A DNA stretch of 33,654 nt from positions 1 through 33,654 of the forward strand of contig SCQV01000366.1 of the NCBI GenBank assembly GCA_004299085.1. The letters run 5' to 3'. Both the position numbers and the translations under genes were made by a program. This document shows positions 999 through 16,267 of the stretch, piece by piece. The notes beneath the pieces were generated by a model. It was not told where the DNA came from. It worked only from the letters and a program-made list of their open reading frames with translations, and made no database searches. The stretch is from Chitinophagaceae bacterium (GTDB taxonomy: Bacteria > Bacteroidota > Bacteroidia > Chitinophagales > Chitinophagaceae). Each line of letters starts with the position of its first letter. Position 1 is the stretch's first letter.

Positions 999-1880
999 CT
1001 AAATATCCTCTTTCAGAAATTTTTTTGCATATTCCTTAGCGGTCAGGCCAGTTATAGATTTGAACTCCCTATTGAAATGAGAAATATTGTTATATCCTGT
1101 ATTGTAGCATATTTCTGTGATGGTCATGTGGCTGTTGACCAATAATTTACAGGCATTAAGAATCCTGATCTCATTTAGGAATTGAGAAAACGTCTTATGG
1201 GTTTTGGCCTTAAAGTAGCGGCAAAAGGATGTTTCGGTGAGATTAGAAAGTGCAGCAACCTTTTCTGTATTCACATCCTCAGAATAATGTTTCATGACAA
1301 AATCCATGACTACATTGATTCGTTCCGCATCCGCAAGGTTAACAGAATTAATATAACCTGGACTTGAAAGCAGATCGTACTCTTCAGTATTTGCAATAGC
1401 GTCAAGAGTCTTTAAAAATAAGACCAGTCTGTTGAAGCCAGAAGAGAGAGCCACTTCTTTTACAAGGGTTGATATTCTTTTATGATCTTCGCCGGGTCTC
1501 ATGAAAACTCCCTGTTGACCATGATGAAAGAGTCTTTTAATGTGCGTTAGCTCTGGAAGGTCAAAAAAGCCCTCTTTAAATGCGTTTTCACGGAAGTGGA
1601 TAACATACACATCTACAAAAAGTTCCTTATTCCCCTGGTAGAAATCCTGATCATTTCTCCACACATGGGGGAGATTGGAGCTTATAAACATTAAATCACC
1701 ATTAGAAAAGTTCCCGATATGGTTTCCCATGAAACGGATGCCATAGCTTTTTTCAACAAAAATAATTTCATGTTCGGGATGATAGTGCCAGGGATAATCC
1801 ATATAAGGGGTTATCTCTCTTTTGACGGTAATCGAGGAAGAATATATCAAAGGAACCTTCTCGAGTTTCGGTAACATCAT
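999..1880 (-). CDS. AraC-family transcriptional regulator with cupin-type sensor domain
   Basis: This 293-residue protein has the usual length and layout of the AraC family. An N-terminal cupin-like effector domain carries the His-rich strand WHYHPEHEIIFV at about residues 31-42. Two helix-turn-helix motifs lie in the last 100 residues (VAALSNLTETSFCRYFKAKT, then ITEICYNTGYNNISHFNREF). It is transcribed away from the sugar-porter operon, the usual place for a local activator. Paired direct repeats in the intergenic region (1949-1980) fit an AraC-type dimer site, and the same site recurs at 9919-9950. It probably senses the transported sugar or an intermediate and activates both operons; this is inference. 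A second ATG one codon later (1877) is an equally possible start. Confidence 0.9.
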   Translation of the reverse strand: MMLPKLEKVPLIYSSSITVKREITPYMDYPWHYHPEHEIIFVEKSYGIRFMGNHIGNFSNGDLMFISSNLPHVWRNDQDFYQGNKELFVDVYVIHFRENAFKEGFFDLPELTHIKRLFHHGQQGVFMRPGEDHKRISTLVKEVALSSGFNRLVLFLKTLDAIANTEEYDLLSSPGYINSVNLADAERINVVMDFVMKHYSEDVNTEKVAALSNLTETSFCRYFKAKTHKTFSQFLNEIRILNACKLLVNSHMTITEICYNTGYNNISHFNREFKSITGLTAKEYAKKFLKEDI

Positions 1881-1948: not shown

Positions 1949-1980
1949 GCAAATATAGTGTCCTAAATCGAAAATATAGT
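1949..1980 (+). promoter_or_regulatory. Predicted AraC-type operator (two direct half-sites 21 bp apart)
   Basis: Two copies of AATATAGT start at 1952 and 1973, exactly 21 bp (two helical turns) apart, within GCAAATATAGTGTC and GAAAATATAGTGGC. Direct repeats two turns apart are typical of AraC-family dimer sites. The block lies between the divergent araC-type gene and the transporter operon. It matches 9919-9950 without gaps. The downstream half-site ends 25 bp before a -7 element at 2006-2013. Confidence 0.65.
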
Positions 1981-2013: not shown

Positions 2014-2046
2014 TAGCTCAGAAGTATGAATCGTTTTATGCAGGAC

Positions 2047-3465
2047 ATGGAAACAAAGAGAGTCAGTAGGCTTTATATTTTTAAGGTGACGCTGGTGGCA
2101 TCTGTTGGTGGCTTTTTGTTTGGATATGATTTGGTGGTGATTGCAGGCGCTCTCCCTTTCCTGGTAGGATATTTTCATCTTTCAACGACTATGCAGGGCT
2201 TTGCAGTAAGCAGTGCTATTCTGGGGGCTATTGTAGGCCCGTTATTTGGTCTTTGGTTTTCTGAAAAGCTTGGAAGACGTAAAACAATGATGATAGCGGC
2301 CATTTGCTTTATGGTTTCAGCCATTGGAAGTGCCTTGGCGCTGACTATATGGGATTTTGCTTTCTGGCGTTTCATTGGCGGGGTGGGTATCGGTCTGGCA
2401 ATGATGTCATCACCCATTTATATAGCTGAATTATCTCCGCCTCAGATACGTGGCCGGCTCGTCAACGTAAACCAATTATCCAACGTCATAGGGATTAACC
2501 TTGCTGTTATTGCCGGGTATTTGCTTTCATCTGACGGTTGGGGTTGGCGATGGATGTTCGGTTCGGAGGCGCTCCCGGTTATCTTTTTGATTATCGGCCT
2601 GTTATTTATTCCCGAAAGCCCAAGATGGTTAGCTGCTCAAAATCGTATACAGGAGTCATTAAAAGTACTGACGAGAGTAAATGGAAGTGATAGGGCCAAG
2701 GATGAATTAAGAGAAATTCGGGAAGAGTTGCAAAAAGACAAAGATGGGGGGAATTTTAAGGAGTTGCTACAACCGGGAGTAAAAGTAGCTTTCTTTATAG
2801 CAATGGTGTTGATGATACTTTCTCAGATTAATGGGATAAATATGATGTTATTATATGCACCAACTATATTGTCTGACGCTGGAATTGATATGGGTACAAA
2901 TTCGATCCTAAGTTCTATTCCGGTATATTTATTTATTTTTATTTGCACGATCGTAGCTTTTGGACTTATAAAACGTTTCAGCCGCAGGGGGTTATTAATT
3001 AGCAGTGTTTTATTTATGGCCGTGGGAAATGCGATCATGGCTATTAACTTGCAACAGCACTGGCCTGCACTATTTACGCTAATACCCATGTTGATTGGCA
3101 CGGGAGCATTTACACTGGGTTTCGCTCCCTTAAGTTGGATAATTGTATCAGAGATATTACCTAATCGTATTAGAGGTAAGGGATTGGCTGTAGTATGTGC
3201 TGTTCTCTACTTCTCATCCTTCATTACTGCCCAGGCATTTCCCATGATGACCCATTGGTTTGAGATCCGATTTGGTAGTTCGTCGGGCGTTTATTGGATA
3301 TTCTGTGGTATATGTATGCTTTGTACCTTTTTTTCATGGAAAATGGTACCGGAAACTAAGGGCATGAGCCTTGAAAAAATTAGTGAGTTCTGGCAGACGG
3401 CGGGCAGTTTAAAACCAATGAGAAAAAGGAATAAAAAAATCATACAAAAAGATATTTACGATTAA
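2047..3465 (+). CDS. MFS sugar-porter family transporter (XylE/GalP/AraE type)
   Basis: This proton-coupled sugar importer of the inner membrane has 472 residues, the normal length for the sugar-porter family. All the family signatures are visible: GGFLFGYDLVVIAG in the first membrane helix, KLGRRK in the 2-3 loop, PESPRWL after helix 6, RRG in the 8-9 loop and PETKGMSLE at the C-terminus. About twelve hydrophobic segments are present. I chose the ATG at 2047 because it aligns with XylE-like N-termini (a short tail before YIF-VTLVASVGG) and leaves a leader after the predicted promoter. In-frame ATGs at 2026 and 2038 are possible. It is the first gene of the operon, 33 bp before the isomerase. 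The substrate is presumably a monosaccharide or polyol but cannot be named. Confidence 0.9.
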   Translation: METKRVSRLYIFKVTLVASVGGFLFGYDLVVIAGALPFLVGYFHLSTTMQGFAVSSAILGAIVGPLFGLWFSEKLGRRKTMMIAAICFMVSAIGSALALTIWDFAFWRFIGGVGIGLAMMSSPIYIAELSPPQIRGRLVNVNQLSNVIGINLAVIAGYLLSSDGWGWRWMFGSEALPVIFLIIGLLFIPESPRWLAAQNRIQESLKVLTRVNGSDRAKDELREIREELQKDKDGGNFKELLQPGVKVAFFIAMVLMILSQINGINMMLLYAPTILSDAGIDMGTNSILSSIPVYLFIFICTIVAFGLIKRFSRRGLLISSVLFMAVGNAIMAINLQQHWPALFTLIPMLIGTGAFTLGFAPLSWIIVSEILPNRIRGKGLAVVCAVLYFSSFITAQAFPMMTHWFEIRFGSSSGVYWIFCGICMLCTFFSWKMVPETKGMSLEKISEFWQTAGSLKPMRKRNKKIIQKDIYD

Positions 3466-3498
3466 TGATGTTTTAATAGAAAATTAAAAGGGATATAC

Positions 3499-4848
3499 AT
3501 GAACTTGAAAGCAGGATTCGTAGGCTTTGGAGAAATTAATTCTCCAAAGCAATTAATAGAAAATAAATGCCGGTCAGCTTTGGACGGAGTAAAATCCTTA
3601 GGGATTGAAATGGTGACAACGGATGTAGTTACGGATGACGCCAGAGGAGAGGATGTAATACGGGCTATAAGAGATTTGAGGAAAAGTACTTTTGACGTAT
3701 TGATCGTATGCCTTGCCGGATGGATACCGTCCCATGCCGTTATTGCAATAACAAGTGAGTTTAAGTACAAGCCGATGATCTTGTGGGGGCTTTGCGGAGA
3801 TAGGGAGAATGGCCGTATAGTGACTGCCGCTGCTCAGGCGGGAACTACCGCATTACGCAAAGTATTCGATGACTTGGGGTACCGATTTGTGTATATCTAT
3901 AATATTATTGGTAAGCCGTTGCCGTTAGACCGGATTAGAAGTTTTGTATTAGGAGCAACTGCCTTAAAATCTCTTGAGCAGGCCAAAGTAGGTATGATGG
4001 GCTTCAGAGATATGAAGCTATATAATACCCTTTATGAGGGGCTGTCATTAAAAGCATTTCTAGGGGTTGAGGTAGAGTTTTTTGAAATGTTGGAGATGGT
4101 CCAGTTAAGTGAAAAAATAGAGGACAGACAAGTACAGGAAATATTACTAAAAATAAAAAGAGAGTGGGAATTTATTAAACCTGTAGATGATGCATTTCTC
4201 ATAAAAGGAATTACTTATTATCTGGCTATAAAAAAAATTGCAGAAGAAAATCATTTTGATGCTATATCGTTGAAAGACGTGGATGGAATGAAAAAGATTC
4301 TACATTTCCCTCCAGCCTTGATCTTTATGCTGCTATCCGATGAGATAAAAGTATGCACTATCCCTGAGAATGACGTGATGGGGGCAGTGACACAACTGAT
4401 TGTTAAACATATTACCGGGCAGTGTGGAGCTTATTTTGAGTTTTACGAATTTTTTGAACGGAGCCTCTTGGTCGGAGTACCCGATTATGTACCATCTGAA
4501 GTGGTTGATGGGAAAGTAACTGTGACAAGCGCAGCTTTCGGAGGCGTTAGTGGGGGCTTGTTAAATATATCTACAGTGAGAACAGGGAAATTAACAATGG
4601 TCCGCTTATCAAATACCGGAGATCAATATACAATGCATATATGCACGGGCGATGGAAGGCTACGATCATGGGAGGAGGCAGGATGGGATCAGCCTGCTCC
4701 GCAACTACCAAGCCTTGAAATATTTCTTGATTCCTCCATTGACGAGTTCTCTCAAAAAGTTTCCGGCCAGCATTATATCATTGCTTATGGGGATTATACA
4801 CAAGCATTGGCTGACTTCTGTTATTTAAAAAATATTAAAGTAGTATAA
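3499..4848 (+). CDS. L-fucose/L-arabinose isomerase-like protein
   Basis: This is a 449-residue cytosolic protein of the FucI/AraA-like aldose-ketose isomerase superfamily. The C-terminal pattern GQHYIIAYGDYTQALADF is the usual 'HH..L.YGD' end of these enzymes and places a metal-ligand His at residue 425. PENDVMGAVTQLI gives Glu290. With E. coli FucI ligands Glu337, Asp361 and His528 as reference, the residue 24 positions after Glu290 is Glu314, so the middle ligand appears to be Glu instead of Asp (ungapped estimate). It is shorter than FucI (about 590 residues). It sits between the sugar porter and the PfkB kinase (6-bp gap), so it most likely converts the imported aldose to a ketose for phosphorylation. 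The exact sugar is unknown. Confidence 0.8.
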   Translation: MNLKAGFVGFGEINSPKQLIENKCRSALDGVKSLGIEMVTTDVVTDDARGEDVIRAIRDLRKSTFDVLIVCLAGWIPSHAVIAITSEFKYKPMILWGLCGDRENGRIVTAAAQAGTTALRKVFDDLGYRFVYIYNIIGKPLPLDRIRSFVLGATALKSLEQAKVGMMGFRDMKLYNTLYEGLSLKAFLGVEVEFFEMLEMVQLSEKIEDRQVQEILLKIKREWEFIKPVDDAFLIKGITYYLAIKKIAEENHFDAISLKDVDGMKKILHFPPALIFMLLSDEIKVCTIPENDVMGAVTQLIVKHITGQCGAYFEFYEFFERSLLVGVPDYVPSEVVDGKVTVTSAAFGGVSGGLLNISTVRTGKLTMVRLSNTGDQYTMHICTGDGRLRSWEEAGWDQPAPQLPSLEIFLDSSIDEFSQKVSGQHYIIAYGDYTQALADFCYLKNIKVV

Positions 4849-4854
4849 GAAAAG

Positions 4855-6051
4855 ATGAAAAAGTATGATGCAGTAATCTCCGGGTATATCTGTGTGGATT
4901 TAATTCCTGATTTCAAGAAAAATAAGTCAGCAACAAGCATTTTTGAAGTCTTAAAGCCAGGTAAGTTAATAGAGATAGACGGGCTCCACGCGACGCTTGG
5001 CGGTGTGGTGGCAAATACCGGGATAGCAATGAAGAAATTTTCACAGAATGTTTTCTTAAATGGGGCCATTGGGGATGATTTTATTGGCAAAATTGCTAAA
5101 AGATGGCTGGATGATTATGCGTTGAAGGGAGACATAAAAATAATGAAGAAGGAAGGGACAGCATTTGGTCTTGTAATAGCGCCACCCGGAGTAGATCGTA
5201 TTTTTCTTGAGTCTCTTGGGTGCAGTCAATTATTTGATAATAGCTGTATTGATTTTGACACTATTGCTCAGAGCCGCCTGTTTCATTTCGGATACCCCCC
5301 CTTACTGAAACAATTTTATCTTAATGAGGGCACCCAATTGATTGATATGTTTTCTGAGGTTCAGCGAGCGGGGGTGGTTACTTCCATGGATTTTAGCTTA
5401 CCTGACAACGAGAGTGAATCAGGTAAGATAAACTGGCCTAAAATTTTAAAACGCGTATTGCCCCATACGGATATTTTCGTTCCCAGCCTGGAAGAAGCAC
5501 TACAAATAATGATGCCTTCTGCATACACAGAAATACAGGCTACTGCCGGAGGTAATGAAATTATTGACTTTATTCCAATTGAGACCATCCGGGAAATCGG
5601 TCAACGGATCATTGATGCTGGCGTAAAAATAGCTTTGATAAAAGCAGGTCATCGTGGTGCTTTTTTATGGACGAACGATATTACAGCTATTAGTGAAAAT
5701 TCAGGCTTTGATTTACATAGGGGGCATTGGAACTTTCGTGAACTCTGGTGCGATGCCTACCCTGTCGAGTATAGTAAAATAAAGAGTGCTTCAGGGGCCG
5801 GTGATACGGCCGCAGCTGCATTCCTTTCAGCAATCCTTAACGGAGAATCTCCGGAGTCTTCATTGCAGTATGCTACGATTGCGGGCAGGAACAATTTATA
5901 TTGTTATAATATTCACGACGAATTACCAGGATGGCCGGAAATGACTAGCGGAATAAAAGTGGAGGTTAATCCCGTTGTTAATTTAAAACAATTGAAAAAT
6001 AATAATTTACCCGGTGTGAGAAGGAACCCTGTATTTAAAAAACAGATATAA
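4855..6051 (+). CDS. PfkB-family carbohydrate kinase
   Basis: This 398-residue ATP-dependent sugar kinase of the ribokinase/PfkB family shows the N-terminal YDAVISGYICVDLIP strand and the glycine-rich LGGVVANTGIAM substrate-binding segment. The C-terminal signature SASGAGDTAAAAF has the catalytic base at Asp317. It is longer than typical PfkB kinases (about 300-330). The extra length lies partly between about residues 215 and 290, around VPSLEEALQIMMPSAYTEIQ and the following helix. It starts 6 bp after the isomerase and 20 bp before the aminotransferase, so it is co-transcribed. It probably phosphorylates the ketose made by the isomerase, to feed the class I aldolase at the end of the operon. 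Confidence 0.88.
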   Translation: MKKYDAVISGYICVDLIPDFKKNKSATSIFEVLKPGKLIEIDGLHATLGGVVANTGIAMKKFSQNVFLNGAIGDDFIGKIAKRWLDDYALKGDIKIMKKEGTAFGLVIAPPGVDRIFLESLGCSQLFDNSCIDFDTIAQSRLFHFGYPPLLKQFYLNEGTQLIDMFSEVQRAGVVTSMDFSLPDNESESGKINWPKILKRVLPHTDIFVPSLEEALQIMMPSAYTEIQATAGGNEIIDFIPIETIREIGQRIIDAGVKIALIKAGHRGAFLWTNDITAISENSGFDLHRGHWNFRELWCDAYPVEYSKIKSASGAGDTAAAAFLSAILNGESPESSLQYATIAGRNNLYCYNIHDELPGWPEMTSGIKVEVNPVVNLKQLKNNNLPGVRRNPVFKKQI

Positions 6052-6071
6052 AATCTTTTTAACAGAGTATA

Positions 6072-7460
6072 ATGAAGAATATGAATAAATTATCAAAAGA
6101 CTGGTGGAAAGAACGTGCGATGACTATTCCTGACATCAAAACTGAATTGCCAGGTCCAAAATCGAAAGTCATGCATGCCAATACGGCAAGATACATGAAA
6201 GGTCTCAGCACTCAAGTGAAATTATTTCCTGTCTGTTTTGAAGAGGGCTTTGGCATTACTCTTACAGATGTTGATGGAAACCGGTATCTTGATTTCTCAT
6301 CGGGAATTTATGTTACCTCTTTAGGGCATTGTCACCCTAAAGTATCAGAAGCGATAGCTTTCTGGGCAAAAAAATTGATGAATGCGCATGACTTTACCAC
6401 ACCGGTAAAAGAAAAACTGATGGAGAAAATGGCTTCTGTTTTACCAGGCCGACTAAATGCCATTCAACTGTATTCTGATGGAGCGACCGCTGTAGAGGCC
6501 GCAATCAGAGCTGCCAGAGCTATTACAAATAAACATGAGTTCATCTCAGCCTACCGCGATTTTCACGGCAAGACACTGGCAGCAGTGAGCAGTGCCCGAA
6601 TGAACCGTGGTGGCACTTTAAGCTACGGGCCGACGAGAGCACCTGGTTTTTATATGGTGCCACGCCCCGATCCTTATCGGCCTCTTTGGACTAAAGCAGA
6701 TGGCACAATTGACACAGATGCTTACATCCGGTTTTATGAACAGTTCTTAACAGAAGGAACCGTGGGAAATATTGCAGCCTTTGTACTGGAGCCCGCTCAG
6801 GGGTGGGCCGGTAGTATTTTCCCACCCGATGATTTTTTCCCGAAGTTGAAAGCACTTTGTGAGAAGCATGATATCCTTCTTTATGATGATGAAATATTGG
6901 CAGGAATGGGAAGGACAGGAGAATGGCTTACGTTAGATCACTGGAATGTTATTCCTGATATTGTAACCTTCGGCAAGTCCTTTGGCAATGGATTCCCGGT
7001 TACGGCTATGGTGGTCAGAGAAGAGAATGGGGAAGCACTTGAAAAAATTTCAGCATCATCCAGCTATGGAGGTAATCCGATGGCCTGTGCCGCGGCATTA
7101 GCTTCTATAGAAGTGATTGAGGAAGAGGGGATACTTCAAAATGTGCGCGAAGTAGGGAATTCTTTTATAAAACGAATGAATAAAATGAAAGAACAACACC
7201 CAATTATAGGAGATGTAAAAGGCAAGGGGTTTCTACTGGGAATGGAACTTGTAAAAGATAAAAAAACAAAAGAACCTTTTGATGAGGCGGGTAAGTTAGT
7301 TTACCAGAAGGCTTTCCGAAGGGGCCTTGCCTGGATTCCGGCAGGTCATATCCTGCGCATGTCTCCGCCTTTAATCATGGATGAAAAATATGCCATGGTA
7401 GGTATGGACATTATCGAGGATGCCATTACAGAGGTAGAAAAAGAACTCGGATATAAATAA
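6072..7460 (+). CDS. Class III PLP-dependent aminotransferase
   Basis: This 462-residue fold-type I enzyme belongs to the GABA/ornithine/dialkylglycine group. Motifs in order are the SSGIYVTSLGHCHP substrate-cofactor region (about 77-89), SDGATAVEAAIRAAR (about 135-149, cofactor phosphate), EPAQGWAG (about 240), DDEILAGMGRTG with the pyridine-binding Asp273, and FGKSFGNGFP with the Schiff-base Lys302. No signal peptide is present. Enzymes of this class move an amino group from a terminal amine to a 2-keto acid, or the reverse. Inside an isomerase-kinase-aldolase operon and next to an amidase-fold gene it suggests a nitrogen-bearing substrate or intermediate. Glutamate-1-semialdehyde or diaminobutyrate aminotransferase is less likely here. 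ATGs at 6072 and 6081 are both possible starts. Confidence 0.88.
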   Translation: MKNMNKLSKDWWKERAMTIPDIKTELPGPKSKVMHANTARYMKGLSTQVKLFPVCFEEGFGITLTDVDGNRYLDFSSGIYVTSLGHCHPKVSEAIAFWAKKLMNAHDFTTPVKEKLMEKMASVLPGRLNAIQLYSDGATAVEAAIRAARAITNKHEFISAYRDFHGKTLAAVSSARMNRGGTLSYGPTRAPGFYMVPRPDPYRPLWTKADGTIDTDAYIRFYEQFLTEGTVGNIAAFVLEPAQGWAGSIFPPDDFFPKLKALCEKHDILLYDDEILAGMGRTGEWLTLDHWNVIPDIVTFGKSFGNGFPVTAMVVREENGEALEKISASSSYGGNPMACAAALASIEVIEEEGILQNVREVGNSFIKRMNKMKEQHPIIGDVKGKGFLLGMELVKDKKTKEPFDEAGKLVYQKAFRRGLAWIPAGHILRMSPPLIMDEKYAMVGMDIIEDAITEVEKELGYK

Positions 7461-7478
7461 TAAAAAAATGAAACCGAC

Positions 7479-7527
7479 ATGATTAAAATAATCATTGAAC
7501 TCACTGGGGAATGATTATTTTAATCAT
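7479..7527. repeat. Perfect 18-bp inverted repeat (intra-operon hairpin)
   Basis: The left arm ATGATTAAAATAATCATT (7479-7496) and right arm AATGATTATTTTAATCAT (7510-7527) are exact reverse complements around a 13-base loop. Each arm is also an imperfect palindrome by itself (ATGATT/AATCAT). It fills the only long gap (128 bp) in an operon whose other gaps are 6-33 bp. It could stabilise the upstream mRNA, attenuate the last two genes or be a small mobile repeat. Confidence 0.75.
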
Positions 7528-7540
7528 CAAAGGTTACATC

Positions 7541-7559
7541 TCCGAAGGAGTCCTTCGGA
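7541..7559. repeat. Short perfect hairpin before the ceramidase-like gene
   Basis: TCCGAAGG (7541-7548), loop AGT, and CCTTCGGA (7552-7559) form an 8-bp perfect stem only 14 bp after the larger inverted repeat. No T-run follows, so it is not a simple terminator. It lies 29 bp before the chosen ATG of the next gene and might affect its translation or mRNA processing. Confidence 0.6.
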
Positions 7560-7588
7560 CCGACAACTTAAAGACAAAAAATAAACGG

Positions 7589-9025
7589 ATGAAAGAAAAA
7601 CAGAAAAGGATGCTGTGCATAGGCTGGGCTGAAGCAGATATTACTCCGGAGGGGCCTGCTTCACTTTTCGGCCAGTATTATGAAAGGATTTCTCAATACG
7701 TGCAAAGCCAACTACAAGTAACTGCCTGTGCTATTGAAGCCATCAATGAGGATGGTGATAAGGATCAAGCCATCATGATATCTATGGATTTATTATATCC
7801 TCTAAAGGCCTTACAGGGTGCATTAAGAAATGACATAAAAGAATTAATCCCGGATTTTGATACCAGAAAACTGTTCCTGAATGCCACGCATACTCATTCA
7901 GCGCCAGAGCCTCGTATAGATAGTGATTATGGTCAGTTATTGCTGAAACAGTTGGGCAAAGTAGTTGTTGAGGCATGGGGTAACCGGGCTCCTGCCGGAG
8001 TAAGTGCTGAATTAGGCTATGCCGTCACCGGTCATAACCGGAGAGCTAAATATGCTGATGGGACGGCTGAGATGTATGGCGCTACAGACAGGTCTGATTT
8101 TATCGGGATGGAGGGGCCAGAAGATTCAGGTGTTAATATGCTTTTCTGTTGGGATGAGGCGCAAAATCTGAATGGAATTATTATGAACGTACCCTGTCCG
8201 GCACAGGTAACAGAGGCTCGGTATTATGTTTCAGCGGATTATTGGAGCGAAGTCAGAAGACGGTTAACAGAGAAATTCTCAGAGAAAGTATTTGTCTTAG
8301 CACAATGTGGAGCAGCGGGAGATTTATCACCTCGTGATCTACCGCGTGGGTATAAGGACAGAGAGCTTAACATGTGGGATATATCCGGCATGGAATTAAT
8401 CGGGAAAAGATTATTCCAAACGGTCATGGAAGTTTACCCGAAGGCTAAAGAAAAAATCCTGACAGAGGTAGAATTTAAACACGTGGCAAAAGACATCAAT
8501 ATTCCCACCCGAAAAGTAAGTAAGGAGGAGTATGAAGAAGCATTAAAGATTTCCACTGAAATACACTCTCGGGAACCAGATGATCCTAATTCGCCCGATA
8601 CAGCCTGGAACAGGTTCCTGAGTGAAATAAAAGAAAACGAGAAGTTGAAAGTTCATGGGCCATGGGATAATAAAAATACAGACTATGGCATTGTAAGGAA
8701 AAAAGACGCTGTAATAGAACAATACAGGAACCAGGAATCTTTCCCCTTTTATAACATGGAATTACATGTGATCCGGATTGGAGAAATAGTCATTGCTTCT
8801 AATTCATTTGAGCTATTCGTGGATTACGGATTCCAAATCATGGGAAGGAGTCTGGCAAAACAGACCTTTCTTGTTCAATTAAGCTGCGACTATGGAGAAT
8901 ATTTGCCAACAAGAATTGCTCTTCAAGGGGGAGGCTACAGTGCTATGGCTAACCCGGTAGGCCCTGAAGGTGGAAAGATATTAGTCGAAGAAACTTTGAA
9001 CGTTATTAATAATCTGTGGGAATAA
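7589..9025 (+). CDS. Neutral/alkaline ceramidase-fold amidase, cytosolic
   Basis: This 478-residue protein matches the catalytic domain of neutral ceramidases, zinc amidases that cleave N-acyl bonds. Visible motifs are NATHTHSAP (zinc His101 and His103), GHNRR (His149-Arg152) and AGDLSP with Ser247 at the position of the ceramidase nucleophile (GDVSP). I chose the ATG at 7589 because the longer frame from 7511 would translate the two hairpins. ATG 7610, just before LCIGWAEADITPEG, is another option. No signal peptide is seen and the C-terminal immunoglobulin-like domain of secreted ceramidases is missing, so it probably works inside the cell on a small substrate. It follows the aminotransferase, which suggests deacylation of an amide to expose an amine. 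Family assignment is strong; substrate is unknown. Confidence 0.82.
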   Translation: MKEKQKRMLCIGWAEADITPEGPASLFGQYYERISQYVQSQLQVTACAIEAINEDGDKDQAIMISMDLLYPLKALQGALRNDIKELIPDFDTRKLFLNATHTHSAPEPRIDSDYGQLLLKQLGKVVVEAWGNRAPAGVSAELGYAVTGHNRRAKYADGTAEMYGATDRSDFIGMEGPEDSGVNMLFCWDEAQNLNGIIMNVPCPAQVTEARYYVSADYWSEVRRRLTEKFSEKVFVLAQCGAAGDLSPRDLPRGYKDRELNMWDISGMELIGKRLFQTVMEVYPKAKEKILTEVEFKHVAKDINIPTRKVSKEEYEEALKISTEIHSREPDDPNSPDTAWNRFLSEIKENEKLKVHGPWDNKNTDYGIVRKKDAVIEQYRNQESFPFYNMELHVIRIGEIVIASNSFELFVDYGFQIMGRSLAKQTFLVQLSCDYGEYLPTRIALQGGGYSAMANPVGPEGGKILVEETLNVINNLWE

Positions 9026-9039
9026 ATGAATAATACATT

Positions 9040-9873
9040 ATGAAATCATACAGATTAAACAGGCTTTTTCATCCTGTTTCACAAAAATGTTTTGATGTAG
9101 CCATTGATCACGGGCTTTTTAATGAATATAGCTTCTTAAAAGGGATTGAAAGCATACAAACATCGGTGGATACACTTATTGGTGCATGTCCGGATGCCAT
9201 TCAATTAACTATTGGTCAGTTGAAATATTTGCAGCGGGTACCAGGCAGGCAAAAGCCTTCTCTTGTACTGCGTACTGACGTGGCAAACGTATATGGAGAA
9301 TCTATTCCTTCGGCTCCTTTCAGCAAAATGATAGCAGAGCCTGTATTACAGGCAGTGAGAGCAGATGCAGCCTGCTTATGTATCAATTTATTTAGCATTC
9401 CCGGGGCACCAGAGGTGACGGCCCAATGTATAGAAAATATCCTGAAGATAAAGCCGGCATCTGATTATTACAGTATGCCTCTAATGATAGAGGCGATTGT
9501 GTTCAAGCCAAATCGTGAATCTGGCGGCTATATGGTAGATGGAAACATTCAAAAAATTTTGCCTTTAGTAAGGCAGGCTGTGGAACTGGGTGCAGACATT
9601 ATCAAGGCCGATCCATCTGACAATGTGGATGATTATCATCGTGTAATTGAAATAGCAGGTGATGTTCCCGTTTTGGTGAGAGGAGGGGGGAAGGCTCCGG
9701 ATGAAGAAATCATTGACCGAACGATACATCTAATGGAGAAAGGGGCTGCAGGAATCGTTTATGGAAGGAATATTATCCAGCATGAACGCCCCGAACTTAT
9801 CACTAAGGCTTTAATGGGAATAGTGCATGAGAAAAAATCAAAGGAAGATGCTTTCAGGATACTGAATATTTAA
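9040..9873 (+). CDS. Class I aldolase of the DhnA/FbaB/LsrF/YihT-like group
   Basis: This 277-residue TIM-barrel protein of the DeoC/LacD/FbaB superfamily has FDVAIDHG at about residues 18-25. The Schiff-base region is GADIIKADPSD with Lys189. A phosphate-binding strand VPVLVRGGGKAP (about 209-220) is followed by GAAGIVYGRNIIQHERP (about 235-251), typical of FbaB/LsrF enzymes. It should cleave a ketose phosphate to DHAP or a related triose phosphate plus an aldehyde. It starts 14 bp after the ceramidase-like gene and is the last gene of the operon. It completes the isomerase-kinase-aldolase set, an order analogous to the sulfoquinovose (sulfo-EMP) route. The aldehyde product may be what the aminotransferase handles, but that is inference. 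Confidence 0.82.
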   Translation: MKSYRLNRLFHPVSQKCFDVAIDHGLFNEYSFLKGIESIQTSVDTLIGACPDAIQLTIGQLKYLQRVPGRQKPSLVLRTDVANVYGESIPSAPFSKMIAEPVLQAVRADAACLCINLFSIPGAPEVTAQCIENILKIKPASDYYSMPLMIEAIVFKPNRESGGYMVDGNIQKILPLVRQAVELGADIIKADPSDNVDDYHRVIEIAGDVPVLVRGGGKAPDEEIIDRTIHLMEKGAAGIVYGRNIIQHERPELITKALMGIVHEKKSKEDAFRILNI

Positions 9874-9918: not shown

Positions 9919-9950
9919 GCCAATAGAGTGTCGTTATTTGCAAATATAGT
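9919..9950 (+). promoter_or_regulatory. Second predicted AraC-type operator (two half-sites 21 bp apart)
   Basis: GCCAATAGAGTGTC starts at 9919 and GCAAATATAGTCG at 9940. Their cores AATAGAGT (9922) and AATATAGT (9943) are 21 bp apart. The block aligns without gaps to 1949-1980, with GC.AATA.AGTGTC shared in the first half and AAATATAGT in the second. It precedes the PhyH-type gene. Confidence 0.6.
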
Positions 9951-10072: not shown

Positions 10073-10903
10073 ATGTCATACTTTAAATTGATGCCAAAAC
10101 ATATAGATGATTATAAAAAAAACGGCTATATCATAATCAGGAACTTCCTAAGTCTAGAGGAAATCACCAAACTTTCAGATGCTGCATGGGGGGACTCGGT
10201 TATAATGAGACACGCCTTTGATTTAAATGATAAAACGGGGAAAAAAACAAAATTGACCTCTTGGTATTTTCCAGGGAATGACATATACGGCTTCCTTACC
10301 AGAAGCAAGAGAATTGTAGGGTCGGTTGACAAATTGATAGCTGGGGAAGGTGCTGTTTGCCATTTTCATAGCAAGTTAATGCAGAAAGAACCGAGAGTAG
10401 GTGGAGCTTGGGAGTGGCATCAGGATTATGGATACTGGTATAAAAATGAATTCTTGTTTCCAAACCAGATGATCTCGGTGATGGTTGCTATAACAGATGC
10501 CAATAAGGAAAATGGTTGCCTTCAGGTAATAAAAGGCTCTCACAAAATGGGACGTATTGAGCATGGGTTTGCTGGTGAGCAGGTGGGTGCCTCACAACAT
10601 TATGTTGATCTGGCATTAAAAACAATGGAGCTAGTATATGTAGAAATAAAAGCAGGAGATGCTCTTTTTTTTCACAGTAATTTATTGCATCGCTCTGAAG
10701 CCAATCTTTCAGATAAGCCCCGGTGGTCTTTAATTTCATGTTACAATAGAATCACTAATGTCCCATATAATGAACCGTCAAAATCAAGTATTACTCCCTT
10801 GAAGATGGTTCCTGATGAGTCCCTGCTAGAATGGAAAACAGAGGATATTACCGAAGAAGCAGATTTTGCGAATAAAAGCCAGGTTCATAAGAAGAATTCT
10901 TAA
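10073..10903 (+). CDS. Phytanoyl-CoA dioxygenase (PhyH)-family Fe(II)/2-oxoglutarate oxygenase
   Basis: This 276-residue cytosolic protein is typical in length for PhyH-family oxygenases. The iron triad is visible: HQD at residues 116-118 (WEWHQDYGYWY) and His206 in FFHSNLLHRSEAN, with Arg217 (SDKPRWSL) placed to bind 2-oxoglutarate. GYIIIRNFLSLEEI near the N-terminus is also characteristic. It should hydroxylate a small molecule using oxygen and 2-oxoglutarate; the substrate is unknown and need not be a CoA ester. Its promoter carries the same operator as the region A operon. It precedes the first SusC gene by 284 bp, so it belongs to the polysaccharide-utilisation-like locus. Confidence 0.87.
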   Translation: MSYFKLMPKHIDDYKKNGYIIIRNFLSLEEITKLSDAAWGDSVIMRHAFDLNDKTGKKTKLTSWYFPGNDIYGFLTRSKRIVGSVDKLIAGEGAVCHFHSKLMQKEPRVGGAWEWHQDYGYWYKNEFLFPNQMISVMVAITDANKENGCLQVIKGSHKMGRIEHGFAGEQVGASQHYVDLALKTMELVYVEIKAGDALFFHSNLLHRSEANLSDKPRWSLISCYNRITNVPYNEPSKSSITPLKMVPDESLLEWKTEDITEEADFANKSQVHKKNS

Positions 10904-10920
10904 GGATACGAATATTTACG

Positions 10921-11172
10921 AAAAGTCAAAAACTTATTTGATAGGTAAGATATCGATGTTTTATAGGACTAAAGATTAAAAAACTCTATTGACAAGAAGA
11001 TCAGAGCAGCACTCCACGGAATAGTTAAACGAGAACTCTCCAATAAATTTGTTAGAAAATTATTTGATTGATAAAGTGTAAAAGTTTTATAAGACTAAAA
11101 ATTAAAAAATCTTATTAATAAGAGGAACTGAGCAGCACCTAACGGAAACGAAAAAATAAAAACTTATAATAA
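10921..11172 (+). repeat. Imperfect tandem duplication, 126-bp period, in the SusC leader
   Basis: Two units of about 126 bp lie head to tail. Matching blocks are TTATTTG at 10934 and 11060, TTTTATAGGACTAAAG (10959) against TTTTATAAGACTAAAA (11085), GAGCAGCAC near 11004 and 11130, and ACGGA near 11016 and 11142. By hand, 10959-11020 and its copy agree at roughly four of five bases; the rest has diverged more. A TAAATTTG at 11044-11051, a perfect -7 consensus, lies at the junction and could be the SusC promoter. Confidence 0.6.
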
Positions 11173-11187
11173 ATCAAAAATTAAACC

Positions 11188-14100
11188 ATGAAAATTCATT
11201 TACGTCTTAAGGACATATTGTCTCCAAGCCACTTTAAGGAGAGTCCTTTCCTAAAGAAGCAAGTCCTTACATCAGTATTAATGTGCATTTTTTGCATGAA
11301 TTCTGTCGCGATACCGCATAACAGGTACGATGGACACAATTTGTTAAATTTATTAAAGGTGGAATATCCTACCTTAATTGGGTCAAAAGATGTTATAATT
11401 AGAGGCCATGTAACTGATGATAATGGGAAACCCCTTCCTGGTGTGACTATTCACTTAAAAGGCACATCCATTGGAACCACCTCAAACACGAATGGTAATT
11501 ATCATATTAGTGTTACTGAAGGTGGTATATTAGTCTTTTCTTTTGTCGGTTATGAAACTCAGGAAATAAAGATAGTTGATCAATCAACAATAAATGTAGT
11601 ACTAAAAGTAAGCAGTACTCTCTTGGGAAAAGTGATAATCACTGCGCTCGGCGTAAAGCAAAACACCAATCAAATCTCTTATGCTACCCAAACAGTTTCA
11701 GGTAAAGAACTGAATACAGCTCCATCAACTAATTTTGTAGATATGCTATCTGGACGGGTTTCAGGCGTTTCTATCCATCAAAGCAGTTCCGGAATTGGGG
11801 GATCGGCTAGTGTGGTCATCAGAGGGTTTAAGTCTGTTCAGGGGAATAATCAACCGTTATATGTTATTAATGGTGTTCCCATGGATAACTTTTCTTCGGA
11901 TGTTATTAATCAAACTTTTACTAGTATGGATCAGGGGGACGTCATATCTTCTTTAAACCCCCAAGATATTGAGAGTATCACCGTATTAAAAGGAGCCTCT
12001 GCGGCGGCACTATACGGCAGTGATGCGGCTAATGGGGCCATACTAATAACTACAAAGCAAGGGGTGGCCGGTACCACAACGGTACATTTATCTTCAAGTC
12101 TTACAATAGATAAAGCAGCTTATGGAATTCCACAGCTACAAAACTCATACGGAGAATCATCTCCCGGATCAGAACAAAGCTGGGGCTCTTCCATTTCGAA
12201 TGCTTCAGATATTATTTCGGGGTTTTTTCAAGATGGAATAACTAACAATAATTCTGTCTCGCTTTCCACAGGCTCCGAAAGAACACAAACCTATATCTCT
12301 TATGGAAATACTACCGCCCGTGGTATTATAGAAAATAATACCCTGTCAAGGAATAATCTCAATGTTAATGAAACGTCCCATTATTTCAATAATAAACTAA
12401 GTATTAACGCAAATGTTAGCTTCGAAGAACAAACAATTAATAATCCTTATGTGAGTGGTTATCAGGCCACCGTATTGCGTGGGTTGTATGGTTTTCCCAG
12501 AGGATTAGATTTTACCCCCTATAAGCAATATCAAATATTTGATTCTACCAGAAATGTTTATACTCAGAATTGGCCTTTTATCACTGCTGATGATCAGAAC
12601 CCTTATTGGGTAGCAAATAAGAATTTAGCCACCAATAAGCGTAACAGATCTATGTTGGCCATGACCGTAAAATACAATATAACAGATTGGCTGAATCTTC
12701 AGCTCCGGGGAAGCAGGGAGAGAATAAATGACCTTAATACTATAGAATATTATTTGGGCACACAGGGGGCTTATGCTGGTACGAATGGAGGGTATAAATA
12801 CCTTAACGCTACCAATACTCAGTATTATGGAGATGCTTTACTCAATTTTGCAAAAACATTTAACAAAATACACATAGACGGGTTGCTAGGAACCAGTATA
12901 AAGAATTCAGAACAATACGGCGTAACAGCAGGAAATTCCACCAATCTATATATTCCTAATGTATTTCTTCTGCAAAATATGAGTGTTATAAACGGTACCA
13001 CAACAAGTCAACTTTCAAATCAGCATGAGCAGGTGCAGTCGGTTTTCGGAAGTGCCAATGTATCCTATAATGATTGGCTGTTTCTTAATCTTACAGGTAG
13101 AAACGACTGGGCATCTACCTTAAGCTTTACTCCTAATGAGTCGTTTTTTTATCCCTCGATTGGATTAGATTTATTGTTGAACAAGGTAGTAAAATTACCG
13201 GAAGTTATAAGCTATACAAAACTTCGGGGTTCTTACGCTGTAGTAGGTAATGCTGTCCCTCTTTTTGTTACTAACCCACAGAATCATTTAAATAGTCAGG
13301 GGAACGTGGTCTTTAACAATAAGGCCCCATTTACGGATCTAAAACCAGAGAAAACAAGATCCCTTGAATTTGGCGCCGATATTCACTTGTTAGAAGATCA
13401 ATTCATTTTGGACTTTGCCTATTATAAATCTAATTCAATCAATCAATTCTTCCCCGTTGCTGTCCCTCCTGGAACAGGATTCAGTACCCGTTTTGTGAAT
13501 GGCGGAAATATCCAAAACTCTGGGGTTGAGATTACTATAGGATACTCAACGCCCAAAGGCCGGCCTTTTCAATGGAGTTCAAACATAAATTTCTCTACCA
13601 ATAGAAACATAGTCAAACAATTGGCGCCCCAATTTGGATTGAACCAATTCCTGTTGGTGAATGACATAAATGGTTATTCTTCCATCCTTAAGGTTGGAGG
13701 GTCTTATGGAGATATTTATGGGCCAATTTTGCAACATGACAAAAGCGGTAGGATAATGATTGATACGAGCGGTGTTCCTATAAGACAAGGAGGGTTGCCA
13801 TCTTATTTAGGCAATCCGAATCCTAAATTTCAAATGGGATGGAATAATACTTTTGGATACAAGAACTTTATACTTAGTATTCTATTTGATGGATCGGATG
13901 GTGGGAAAGCGATGGATCTAACAGAACAAATGTTGGATGGCCTTGGAGTTTCTAAAGCATCTGGTATTGCACGAGAAAACGGCGGAGTGAAGGTAAATGG
14001 CGTTGTGTCTGAGACCGGAGCGACTGTTACTACAGTAGATGCTCAGAAATGGTACACGACTATCGGAGGAAGAGGTGGCGTAACCGGAGAGTATATGTAT

Positions 14101-14346
14101 AATCTGTCAAATATACAGCTAAGAGAACTTTCTATCGGGTATTCTTTACCGAATAAGATGTTGAGAGATAAGTTTATTAAAAAAGTTGAACTTTCTTTAG
14201 TGGCTAGAAATGTCGCTTTTCTATATAACAAAGCTCCATTCGATCCGAATCTTATATATGCCACGCAGAATGGGTATAATGGTGTAATGGTATTTAGCCA
14301 GCCGACAACACGTAATTTCGGATTTACACTCAATGTTACATTCTAA
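11188..14346 (+). CDS. SusC/RagA-family TonB-linked outer-membrane transporter
   Basis: This 1052-residue outer-membrane importer has a signal sequence after a charged N-terminal stretch (hydrophobic core VLTSVLMCIFCMNSV, about residues 27-41). A CarboxypepD_reg-like domain follows (about 68-155, with GHVTDDNGKPLPGVTIHLKG and VFSFVGYETQEI). The plug carries the SusC features MLSGRVSGVSI, VVIRGF and PLYVINGVPM, and ITVLKGASAAALYGSDAANG is the classic 'LKDASAAAIYG' signature. A 22-strand barrel ends in NFGFTLNVTF with a terminal Phe suited to outer-membrane insertion. SusD follows 33 bp later. It imports an oligosaccharide or glycoconjugate in TonB-dependent fashion; the ligand cannot be told. 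Confidence 0.95.
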   Translation: MKIHLRLKDILSPSHFKESPFLKKQVLTSVLMCIFCMNSVAIPHNRYDGHNLLNLLKVEYPTLIGSKDVIIRGHVTDDNGKPLPGVTIHLKGTSIGTTSNTNGNYHISVTEGGILVFSFVGYETQEIKIVDQSTINVVLKVSSTLLGKVIITALGVKQNTNQISYATQTVSGKELNTAPSTNFVDMLSGRVSGVSIHQSSSGIGGSASVVIRGFKSVQGNNQPLYVINGVPMDNFSSDVINQTFTSMDQGDVISSLNPQDIESITVLKGASAAALYGSDAANGAILITTKQGVAGTTTVHLSSSLTIDKAAYGIPQLQNSYGESSPGSEQSWGSSISNASDIISGFFQDGITNNNSVSLSTGSERTQTYISYGNTTARGIIENNTLSRNNLNVNETSHYFNNKLSINANVSFEEQTINNPYVSGYQATVLRGLYGFPRGLDFTPYKQYQIFDSTRNVYTQNWPFITADDQNPYWVANKNLATNKRNRSMLAMTVKYNITDWLNLQLRGSRERINDLNTIEYYLGTQGAYAGTNGGYKYLNATNTQYYGDALLNFAKTFNKIHIDGLLGTSIKNSEQYGVTAGNSTNLYIPNVFLLQNMSVINGTTTSQLSNQHEQVQSVFGSANVSYNDWLFLNLTGRNDWASTLSFTPNESFFYPSIGLDLLLNKVVKLPEVISYTKLRGSYAVVGNAVPLFVTNPQNHLNSQGNVVFNNKAPFTDLKPEKTRSLEFGADIHLLEDQFILDFAYYKSNSINQFFPVAVPPGTGFSTRFVNGGNIQNSGVEITIGYSTPKGRPFQWSSNINFSTNRNIVKQLAPQFGLNQFLLVNDINGYSSILKVGGSYGDIYGPILQHDKSGRIMIDTSGVPIRQGGLPSYLGNPNPKFQMGWNNTFGYKNFILSILFDGSDGGKAMDLTEQMLDGLGVSKASGIARENGGVKVNGVVSETGATVTTVDAQKWYTTIGGRGGVTGEYMYNLSNIQLRELSIGYSLPNKMLRDKFIKKVELSLVARNVAFLYNKAPFDPNLIYATQNGYNGVMVFSQPTTRNFGFTLNVTF

Positions 14347-14379
14347 ACGTATGTATTAATCTCTTAAAAAATAAATAAG

Positions 14380-15981
14380 ATGAAAAATGCTAAATTTTAT
14401 ATTAATTATATTGTTCTGATAGCAATATTATTGCTAATGAACTCCTGTACCAAGAGTTTTGAGAAATATAATACAGACTCTAATGGAATAAGTGAAAAGG
14501 AGCTAACCGTTGATTTTAATAATATCGGCCAGTTCTTTCCACCTATTGAACAAGCGTATGATTTTATTGGAGATATAAATCAGAACGTACAAATGGATGT
14601 TGGATTTTTAGGAGGTGCTGGTGGTTATGGGGGATATTTTTCAAACACCTATATAGGCCAAACTCTTTCTAATTATTCCTTTTCTGCTAATACTTTAAAC
14701 AACCAAATGTTATTTCCGTGGGGATATAATTACGTAATGTCTCCGATTGAAAATATAGCACGAGGTGGTGCCAGAGTATCTGCTCCAGATTTTTGGGCTA
14801 TTGCGCTAATTTTGCAAGTCGGAGCAATGCAAAAAGTAACAGATATGTATGGGCCAATTCCATACAGCAAATTCGGCCAGGGAGGTTCCACGGTCTCTTA
14901 CGATAGTCAAGAGTCTATTTATAACCTGTTCTTTTCCCAATTAGATACGGCGGTGAATAATTTGAAGGCATATATTGCGAATCGTCCAGGAGCCAAACCT
15001 TTCAAAAAATTTGATGAAGTTTATGGTGGGGATTATACAGAATGGTTAAGATATGCAAATTCTTTGCGTTTACGATTGGCTATGCAGATTGTTAAAGTTG
15101 ATCCTCAAGAAGCCCAAACTCAAGCAGAAAAAGCTGTTAATCCAAGCAGTGGGGGAGTTTTGACGACAAATACCGACAATGCCCTTGTTTCAGGGGCTAT
15201 TAATCCGGTAGAAATATCTCTCCATGAGTGGCAGGATAATCATGTCAACGCGAATATAGTTTCCTATATGTTGGGGTATAATGATCCGCGGGTTAGTAAA
15301 TATTTTGAGCCCTCTACAATTGTCCCAGGACAATACATAGGGCTTCGATTCGGTGGTGCTTATGATGCACAGTCTATTACTCTTCAGTTCACGAATGCGA
15401 CGAATGACATAAATAGGCAATCTCCTTTTATTTTAATGACTGCGGCTGAAGTCTATTTTTTACGTGCAGAAGGAGCATTGAGAGGTTGGAATATGGGGGG
15501 AACGGCGGAGGATTTGTACAATGAAGGCATTGATGCATCCTTTGCTCAATGGGGAGTTGGGAGTGATGCCTCAGCATATATCAATAATTCAACAAGTATC
15601 CCAGCAAATTATGTAGATCCGAGTAATTCCCATAATAATATAAATGCATTATCAACTATTCCAATTCAATGGATCGCAAACGGGTCCAAGGAGCAGAATT
15701 TGGAACAAATTATAACCCAGAAATGGATTGCAACTTATCCATACGGTTGTTCTGAAGCATGGGCCACTTTCCGTAGAACCGGATATCCTAGACTTTTTCC
15801 CGTCGTAAATAATTTTAGTGGTGGAACTGTTAATACAACTATTCAAATAAGGAGGGTGCCATATCCACAAACAGAATATGAAAATAATAGTGCAGCAGTC
15901 ACGCAAGCAGTACAAATGCTTGGGGGACCTGATGATGGCGGGACAAGAGTTTGGTGGGATATTAATGAAGGCAATTTTTAG
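14380..15981 (+). CDS. SusD/RagB-like outer-membrane lipoprotein (SusD-like_2 type)
   Basis: This 533-residue surface glycan-binding lipoprotein is the partner of the preceding SusC. The signal peptide ends in LLLMNSC with the lipid-carrying Cys23, followed by the family start FEKYNTDSNGI. TPR-like helices are suggested by YANSLRLRLAMQIVKVDPQEA, and TAAEVYFLRAEGA and SEAWATFRRTGYPRLFP are characteristic of the SusD-like_2 group (PF12771). It holds the ligand as a lid over SusC. A GC-rich hairpin follows the stop by 15 bp. Confidence 0.93.
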   Translation: MKNAKFYINYIVLIAILLLMNSCTKSFEKYNTDSNGISEKELTVDFNNIGQFFPPIEQAYDFIGDINQNVQMDVGFLGGAGGYGGYFSNTYIGQTLSNYSFSANTLNNQMLFPWGYNYVMSPIENIARGGARVSAPDFWAIALILQVGAMQKVTDMYGPIPYSKFGQGGSTVSYDSQESIYNLFFSQLDTAVNNLKAYIANRPGAKPFKKFDEVYGGDYTEWLRYANSLRLRLAMQIVKVDPQEAQTQAEKAVNPSSGGVLTTNTDNALVSGAINPVEISLHEWQDNHVNANIVSYMLGYNDPRVSKYFEPSTIVPGQYIGLRFGGAYDAQSITLQFTNATNDINRQSPFILMTAAEVYFLRAEGALRGWNMGGTAEDLYNEGIDASFAQWGVGSDASAYINNSTSIPANYVDPSNSHNNINALSTIPIQWIANGSKEQNLEQIITQKWIATYPYGCSEAWATFRRTGYPRLFPVVNNFSGGTVNTTIQIRRVPYPQTEYENNSAAVTQAVQMLGGPDDGGTRVWWDINEGNF

Positions 15982-15995
15982 TCGGCATTGAAAAT

Positions 15996-16230: not shown

Positions 16231-16267
16231 TAATTGACTCGCTGAGTTTTGGAATCTTAGGTTACCT

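Follow-up and report, generated by a model that had tools for sequence, protein, structure and literature searches.

Among described catabolic systems, the sulfoglycolytic pathways are close points of comparison for the locus considered here, which lies on contig SCQV01000366.1 of a Chitinophagaceae bacterium. As given in excerpts of PMC9594981, the sulfo-Embden-Meyerhof-Parnas (sulfo-EMP) pathway includes YihV and YihT, which share the Pfam families PF00294 and PF01791 with the kinase and the aldolase of this locus. The FucI-family isomerase SqvD serves both sulfo-EMP2 and sulfo-TAL, the latter with a transaldolase (excerpts of PMC9594981 and PMC11968277), and a hybrid cluster has SqvD in place of YihS and SqiA in place of YihT (PMC9594981, in excerpt). 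The window, by which we mean the whole stretch of DNA analyzed (33,654 bp), contains an operon for a major facilitator superfamily (MFS) importer, a predicted aldose-ketose isomerase (ISO), a PfkB-family kinase (KIN), a class III aminotransferase (AT3), a ceramidase-fold protein (CER), and a class I aldolase (ALD). Our leading reading, put forward with reserve, is that the locus serves the AraC-controlled import and catabolism of an aldose, most likely one that bears an amino or N-acylamino group; that the substrate contains nitrogen appears likely from the genes present.

Architecture of the operon

The genes for MFS, ISO, KIN, AT3, CER, and ALD are six closely spaced plus-strand open reading frames (ORFs) that form one tight operon at 2026–9873, with intergenic gaps of, in order, 33, 6, 20, 50, and 14 bp (the gap of 50 bp becomes 128 bp when measured from the likely CER start). 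An earlier note on this DNA had claimed an operon comprising an isomerase, a PfkB kinase, a class III aminotransferase, a ceramidase-fold gene, and a class I aldolase; this set is present, on one strand and with tight gaps. The span given there, 2047–9873, is right at its end, and its start falls within the MFS ORF. The PhyH gene begins 199 bp downstream of ALD and is followed by SusC, SusD, and a probably secreted protein of no assigned class (10073–18427 for all four). Between the window and a genome of the same genus (G001), the five genes from ISO to ALD show nonsynonymous divergences (dN) of 0.10–0.34 with synonymous sites saturated or nearly so. Because dN is low while synonymous sites are near saturation, and because gene order is kept across families, the operon is not a chance assembly.

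Folds and putative active sites

ISO has no Pfam match, and its sole NCBIfam match, SftI, scores 35.9 bits against a cut-off of 700. The AlphaFold2 model of ISO (pLDDT 91, from an alignment of 39 homologs) has L-arabinose isomerases as its best Foldseek matches (E about 1e-24, query TM about 0.8), with L-fucose isomerases ranking behind them (E about 1e-17). By its predicted fold, ISO is a member of the L-arabinose/L-fucose isomerase superfamily. The candidate metal residues E290, D292, E314, D329, and H380 are kept in 39/39 rows of the alignment and H425 in 38/39, the remaining row being gapped; the profile alignment of this candidate Glu/Asp/His site to AraA is weak (probability 7%, E 0.005). 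In addition, H79, R120, R170, and K265 are kept in 39/39 rows. No AraA_N Pfam domain is found in ISO, and the window's own genome (G000) has no AraA_N match, though 14 of the 39 genomes searched have one.

CER scores 20.9 bits with the Pfam family Ceramidase_alk (PF04734), below the gathering cut-off of 32.1. Its AlphaFold2 model (pLDDT 92, alignment of 52 homologs) matches four neutral ceramidase chains in Foldseek with probability 1.00, the best being 2zws (E 2e-25, query TM 0.69, rmsd 8.4), and all non-ceramidase matches listed have probabilities of 0.35 or less; the predicted fold is that of a neutral ceramidase. The zinc ligands of that enzyme, which we take to be His97, His204, Glu411, and Tyr448 (a literature search did not confirm this set), correspond in CER to H101, the first His of HTHS, E408, and Y438, each present in 52/52 rows; the Tyr is presumably matched, as the alignment ends before it. 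At the remaining place, CER appears to have lost one of the four ligands, His to Pro, giving a putatively degenerate zinc site, and Cys203, just before the lost His204 place, is present in 49/52 rows. The alignment there is made firmer by a distant CER paralog (L098), which has Cys-His at the lost-ligand site.

As judged by eye, no signal peptide is present in the window or Clostridia rows of CER, and a hydrophobic leader or lipobox is present in several Bacteroidota (L011, L014, L017, L019–L021, L024, L025, and L033). These leaders and lipoboxes would fit a hydrolase placed early in the route, ahead of or following uptake, better than one working between the kinase and the aldolase. The cytosolic amidase role proposed in the earlier note, in view of the degenerate zinc site and these leader sequences, is not established.

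CER is represented by two or three genes, frequently in tandem, in each of L019, L020, L033, L062, L088, L097, L120, and L121. In L097 (7290–11776), three ceramidase-fold genes with leaders lie near SusC/D and a large dehydrogenase-like gene, as labeled by eye, and in L120 (8022–14642) three such genes lie near GH123, NagA, and NagB-like genes. The gene for the Cys-His paralog of L098 (8540–15082, genome G162) adjoins those for a class III aminotransferase, a dehydrogenase of 3HCDH type, a dipeptidase-family protein, and an MFS protein; the best matches of this aminotransferase, guanitoxin GntE and glutamate-1-semialdehyde aminomutase, are below cut-off. L098 is a second, independent pairing of the ceramidase fold with a class III aminotransferase.

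AT3 belongs to the class III aminotransferases by its Pfam Aminotran_3 match and by the lysine of its FGKSFGNG stretch, which aligns with the lysine of the solved relatives 7vno and 9wqz and which we take to be the pyridoxal 5′-phosphate (PLP) lysine. None of the 25 models listed, of 69 NCBIfam models matched, is above its cut-off. By name, the closest solved relatives are a 4-aminobutyrate-type aminotransferase and alanine/serine and broad amino-acid racemases.

The best NCBIfam match of KIN is the IolC domain (47.1 bits, cut-off 300). A lysine of ALD, presumably the Schiff-base lysine, aligns with that of MJ0400 and LsrF.

Conservation across genomes

Relatives were collected by scanning named genomes with aligned ISO sequences of the window and G001, and the best 80 of 191 were taken; with a duplicate contig (L026) dropped and the window and a 20-kb region of G001 added, 81 loci were compared. 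These comprise 26 Bacteroidota loci, 52 Clostridia-like loci (50 with an ISO ORF retained), and 3 others (a contig labeled Opitutus, Terriglobia, and Spirochaetota), grouped by record title; not all are from separate genomes (L012 and L028 share one). The loci found include those of Agriterribacter humi, Pedobacter sp. MC2016-24, and Parapedobacter indicus, isolates that carry all or the greater part of the genes.

Among the 26 Bacteroidota loci, KIN is present in 25, AT3 in 23, ALD in 15, and a CER-cluster gene in 25, the last being a paralog of only 25–27% identity in L012 and L015–L018 and only 32–36% identical in L011, L024, and L033. Where at least 6.5 kb follows ISO (21 loci), KIN and AT3 are found in 21/21, a CER-cluster gene in 20, and ALD in 15. 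The exact order ISO-KIN-AT3-CER-ALD occurs in 10/26 loci (the window, L008, L010, L013, L023, L027–L030, and L037). AT3 is the most conserved member, with 77–88% identity in Bacteroidota. ISO itself is rare in the sampled genomes of its own phylum: it is found in 2 of 39 close relatives (its own genome and G001), and 395 own-phylum genomes gave one strong match (its own genome) and four weak ones at 21–23% identity.

The 50 Clostridia-like loci contain an FGGY kinase (38), CER (34), a YjbQ-type protein (26), TIM (23), SIS (21), and TAL/FSA (16), and neither KIN nor ALD is found in any of the 50. Linkage between CER and ISO holds in both phyla, and AT3 is found mainly outside Clostridia. A recurrent ISO-FGGY-TAL-TIM-SIS-YjbQ group (for example, L065, L066, L070, and L077) places a YjbQ-type (UPF0047) protein within a sugar operon.

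At E 1e-100, AT3 was found in 10/10 Bacteroidota genomes, one Terriglobia genome, and 1/16 Clostridia-like genomes among 27 genomes chosen by the author, a sample outside which the known AT3 carriers L081 and L087 lie. In these two Clostridia-like loci, AT3, a Gfo/Idh-family gene, and CER occur together, and an AT3-Gfo/Idh pair is seen in L157 near a GH39-like gene (labeled by eye). Of four Clostridia-like matches to the AT3 cluster, only L081 and L087 were counted: those in L068 and L072, at 31–32% identity, were rejected as AT3, the L068 protein scoring above the ArgD cut-off beside an ornithine-carbamoyltransferase-like gene and L072 being judged by the same neighbors.

In a survey of 19 AT3-bearing genomes (ALD at E 1e-20; the Gfo/Idh enzyme, cluster c17, at E 1e-60), ALD and Gfo/Idh were each found in 11, with ALD alone in 8, Gfo/Idh alone in 8, and both in 3, where the two genes are adjacent in every case. 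These adjacent ALD-Gfo/Idh pairs occur with a D-lyxose/mannose-isomerase-family gene, PfkB, and GH92 (L172, 9752–13365, G456:C4) and with genes for a kinase of PfkB type and a PIG-L deacetylase together with a NagB-like gene (L170, 8789–13590; L171, 9489–14292, its genes labeled by similarity to L170). The NagB-like gene of these two loci is 27–29% identical to that of L058, and the L170 copy has no Pfam or NCBIfam match. ALD may be a general ketose-phosphate aldolase that works behind different isomerizing enzymes, and these three modules could be non-phosphorylated mannose and N-acetylglucosamine routes that pass through a ketose phosphate.

Twenty genomes without CER at the ISO locus were searched for CER at E 1e-40 or better. 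CER was found elsewhere in 12 of them, in a set where several ISO contigs are short and an adjoining CER may be cut off; none was found at this threshold in the other 8, which include the Terriglobia and the Spirochaetota genome.

Regulation

The operator AATAKAGT-N13-AATATAGT stands at 1952–1980, ahead of the catabolic operon, and again at 9922–9950, ahead of PhyH, and was found in 0 of 100 shuffles; in the 4.98-Mb assembly, a longer form is exact only at these two sites. The two window sites are clear from the sequence and would tie the catabolic operon to the PhyH-SusC-SusD unit, in support of the co-regulation with PhyH that had been claimed earlier. Genome-wide, no further regulon members stood out above control, with 5 sites at up to 3 mismatches for both this longer form and its reversed control.

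AraC orthologs of 56–73% identity lie beside 14/26 Bacteroidota isomerase loci, window included. The gap after AraC was compared in the 13 orthologous loci with 300 Markov shuffles each. The site of L031 has 2 mismatches (0/300 shuffles as good), those of L021, L023, L028, L029, L030, and L037 have 3 (2 to 13 of 300), the regions of L028–L030 being near copies of one another, and those of L010, L020, L027, and L032 have 4 (13 to 30 of 300); L013 and L014 gave no signal beyond chance, and in L010 and L021 a half-site spacing other than 21 scores better. Conservation of the operator across orthologous loci is probable on this evidence. Among the 81 loci, the window and G001 alone have a PhyH ortholog next to the set; PhyH was rejected as a core part of the route and retained as a regulon member.

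Genomic neighbors of ISO and CER

NagA (above cut-off) and a NagB-like gene (below cut-off) directly follow the ISO gene group in L058 and accompany three CER genes and GH123 in L120. Near ISO or CER there are also ornithine-cyclodeaminase-family genes (L040 and L123), a class I aminotransferase (L041), and M20 deacylases (L069 and L070), and glycerate kinase scores above cut-off at the ISO locus of L031 and at the CER locus of L120. These nitrogen enzymes form a pattern of suggestions, not proof.

GH39 was rejected as a substrate clue; it accounts for 6 of 72 neighbor proteins scanned (72 chosen of 208 listed, among the first 25 of 121 families). A protein of L040 was likewise set aside, its best solved match being a "glucosidase," which names no sugar. 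Proteins without a Pfam family adjoin ISO or belong to its regulon in L012 (5974–8319), L079 (2992–4887), L055 (6488–8503), and the window (16445–18427), and the cluster of the L079 protein (c33) recurs near CER in L014, L020, and L120; these proteins are possible new glycosidase families.

Other features of the window

The features of the locus are collected in Table 1. Family scans covered 17 of the 22 window ORFs, the others of 100 amino acids or more being at 3462–3770, 22698, 25751, 26474–26821, and 33018. A second, LacI-associated locus (18917–31993) encodes a PF12831 FAD oxidoreductase, a SusC/D-like pair (by eye), a weakly matching BNR-repeat protein, a DHDPS-family lyase, an MFS protein, and an alpha/beta hydrolase, and reads like a locus for sialic-acid-like or keto-sugar-acid utilization. 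A tRNA-like fragment seen by eye at 240–280, with a single occurrence in the assembly and no gene call, is a possible remnant of an insertion site; the tRNA scan for such a site called no gene, and no relative was found in the viral contigs searched.

Table 1. Features of the locus, with positions in the window
Feature	Position	Strand	Basis
AraC-family regulator, divergent	999..1880	-	Pfam HTH_18/HTH_AraC
AraC-type tandem operator, two half-sites 21 bp apart, ahead of the catabolic operon	1952..1980	+	pattern; AraC binding inferred
Sugar-porter MFS importer	2026..3465	+	Pfam Sugar_tr 321 bits; TIGR00879 319 bits, above cut-off
ISO, L-arabinose-isomerase-fold aldose-ketose isomerase, unnamed family	3499..4848	+	AlphaFold2/Foldseek
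KIN, PfkB-family ketose kinase	4855..6051	+	Pfam PfkB 62.9 bits
AT3, class III PLP aminotransferase	6072..7460	+	Pfam Aminotran_3 315 bits
CER, neutral-ceramidase-fold hydrolase	7589..9025 (more probable start; longer ORF from 7511)	+	fold match
ALD, class I DeoC/LacD/LsrF-type aldolase	9040..9873	+	Pfam DeoC 98 bits
Second AraC-type operator, ahead of PhyH	9922..9950	+	pattern; AraC binding inferred
PhyH-type 2-oxoglutarate/Fe(II) oxygenase, accessory in this genus	10073..10903	+	Pfam PhyH 137 bits
SusC-type TonB-dependent outer-membrane transporter	11188..14346	+	
SusD-type lipoprotein	14380..15981	+	
Probably secreted protein, no Pfam family, conserved in G001	16445..18427	+	

Proposed route and alternatives

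The reactions and their order given here are our proposal, built on the observed operon, folds, conservation, operator sequences, and gene replacements. SusC/D and the MFS protein would import the compound. As the first enzyme to act, CER would release the sugar by hydrolysis of its bond to an acyl or conjugate group. AT3 would then remove the amino group to leave a carbonyl, which might be reduced by the Gfo/Idh enzyme that adjoins AT3 in other lineages. ISO would convert the aldose to a ketose, KIN would phosphorylate the ketose, and ALD would cleave the ketose phosphate to dihydroxyacetone phosphate and a three-carbon aldehyde. In Clostridia, where ISO and usually CER are kept, the final steps would fall to an FGGY kinase and often a transaldolase-type enzyme. 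This reading draws on the fold and candidate metal residues of ISO, the families that KIN and ALD share with YihV and YihT, the FGGY and TAL replacements in Clostridia-like loci, the presence of ALD and PfkB beside other isomerizing enzymes (L172, L170, and L171), the nitrogen enzymes near ISO and CER, and the operators; the upstream role of CER draws on the leaders and lipoboxes and on the 12 of 20 genomes with CER away from ISO. A fuller version, offered as a speculative possibility, is an undescribed route, whole or partial in Bacteroidota, Clostridia, and one Terriglobia genome (in the last without CER), in which CER, with its altered metal site, and AT3 would unmask an N-acylated amino sugar, and ISO, a ketose kinase, and a class I aldolase or transaldolase-type enzyme would then degrade it, an amino-sugar counterpart of sulfoglycolysis.

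Several findings weigh against this reading. The nearest solved relatives of AT3 are named as acting on amino acids, not sugars. Of the 16 Clostridia-like genomes tested, 15 lack AT3, so the ISO route does not require it for removing the amine. ALD is missing from 8 of the 19 AT3-bearing genomes, with the Gfo/Idh oxidoreductase in its place, and in the Terriglobia genome, which carries ISO, FGGY, AT3, and ALD, the search for CER at E 1e-40 was negative. At the His204 place, the 52 CER rows have Pro (46), Thr (4), Ser (1), or His (1). Each nitrogen enzyme is found in few loci only and could serve a neighboring pathway. The earlier note had counted it against its own reading should the aminotransferase and amidase not be conserved with the isomerase, kinase, and aldolase genes. 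Such conservation is found for AT3 in Bacteroidota (21/21 loci, 10/10 genomes) and for CER in two phyla; it is lacking in part, with AT3 in 1/16 Clostridia-like genomes, ALD missing as just described, and CER represented only by a paralog in five loci.

The strongest rival of the favored N-acylated amino sugar, though we consider it doubtful, is a conjugate that CER would split into a sugar and an amine or amino acid. The sugar half would pass to ISO, KIN, and ALD, and the amine half to AT3 (amine to carbonyl), Gfo/Idh (carbonyl to alcohol, such as hydroxypyruvate to glycerate), and glycerate kinase; in Clostridia without AT3, the amine half would be discarded or handled by other amino-acid enzymes. 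Such a conjugate would fit the aminobutyrate-type aminotransferase and amino-acid racemases among the relatives of AT3, the AT3-Gfo/Idh adjacency in Bacteroidales and Clostridia, and the occurrence in Clostridia, close to ISO or CER, of ornithine-cyclodeaminase-family, alanine-aminotransferase-like, and M20 deacylase genes, and it would account for AT3 being dispensable. The glycerate kinases of L031 and L120 agree with it as well, but they are the only two in the loci searched, and the NagA, NagB-like, and PIG-L neighbors point to amino sugars over amino acids. The conserved H101, E408, and Y438 (52/52 rows), together with C203 (49) and Pro at the lost His (46), have a further reading, an unlikely one that could be combined with the others: CER would not be an amidase but a branch of the ceramidase fold whose metal site has changed (to His, Glu, Tyr, and possibly Cys203) and that acts as a glycosidase or esterase, its several paralogs per locus serving different linkages. 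The tandem CER genes and the glycosidase neighbors (GH39, GH3, GH123, and a mannosylglycerate-hydrolase-like gene) are consistent with this; the fold of CER, however, is that of an amidase, and the Cys-His paralog of L098 stands beside another class III aminotransferase.

It is quite unlikely that the substrate is free of nitrogen, for instance a uronic acid or a hexose substituted at position 6, like sulfoquinovose; in that case AT3 would act on the three-carbon aldehyde from ALD, and CER would be an esterase or other hydrolase. The split between PfkB with class I aldolase and a transaldolase-type enzyme mirrors sulfo-EMP and sulfo-TAL, the invariant H79, R120, R170, and K265 of ISO could bind an acidic group, and the degenerate zinc site of CER also speaks for this reading. 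SftI is the only NCBIfam match of ISO, but its score is far below cut-off, no GH31 sulfoquinovosidase or sulfolactaldehyde (SLA)-reductase-type family is found among the 17 window ORFs scanned, and amination of a waste aldehyde would have no catabolic use known to us. That the genes form an already described pathway or a chance row is very improbable: all parts do have known folds or families, but gene order is kept over families, the exact operator occurs at this locus only, and literature searches, covering open-licence papers, returned no described pathway with this exact set, in keeping with what the earlier note had supposed.

If the favored amino-sugar route is correct, a nutrient of soil Chitinophagaceae and gut Clostridia has been missed by family-based annotation, because ISO has no Pfam family and CER falls below threshold. 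It would also assign a role to a branch of the ceramidase fold that, going by name, would be placed in lipid metabolism, and the sulfoglycolytic scheme (isomerize, phosphorylate or not, cleave) would become a more general template for modified hexoses.

Comparison with described systems

The analogy with fucose or sulfo-EMP degradation drawn earlier for the isomerase, kinase, and aldolase is supported. Similar to sulfo-EMP and sulfo-EMP2, the window operon pairs a PF00294 ketose kinase with a PF01791 class I aldolase, and in sulfo-EMP2 and one hybrid cluster the isomerase step is likewise carried out by a FucI-family enzyme (excerpts of PMC9594981). The window operon adds AT3 and CER. A sulfoquinovose isomerase, either YihS (PF07221) or SqvD/SftI (PF02952), is not recognized in ISO, given its lack of a Pfam match and its low SftI score, and the scanned ORFs include neither a GH31 sulfoquinovosidase nor an SLA reductase or dehydrogenase. 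Membership in the sulfoquinovose pathway was rejected on the SftI score and these missing genes, and the pathway was kept as an analogy. The Clostridia version resembles sulfo-TAL and sulfo-SFT (SqvD/SftI with SqvA/SftT) in pairing ISO with a PF00923 transaldolase/FSA-type enzyme in 16/50 loci (PMC9594981 and PMC11968277, both in excerpt) and differs in having an FGGY kinase and often CER and atypical TIM, SIS-domain, and YjbQ-type proteins. Taken as an analogy, the Bacteroidota and Clostridia versions of the set resemble the split between sulfo-EMP and sulfo-TAL.

The pathways of L-fucose and L-arabinose isomerase share with the locus the fold of ISO and, in Clostridia, the FGGY kinase, whereas ISO is only 10–16% identical to these enzymes, Bacteroidota have PfkB instead of FGGY, and AT3 and CER are extra. 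CER shares with neutral ceramidase (PF04734) its fold and the first His, Glu, and Tyr of the metal site; it differs in having no His204 equivalent, in its length (478 residues versus about 640), in its sugar-operon context, and in having no leader in the window. The favored reading has its nearest logical counterpart in N-acetylglucosamine catabolism (NagA, NagB, and PIG-L), which proceeds by deacylation and amine removal to a ketose and whose genes lie near ISO, CER, or ALD in L058, L120, L170, and L171; the window operon has no NagA or NagB, and CER and AT3 would fill those parts.

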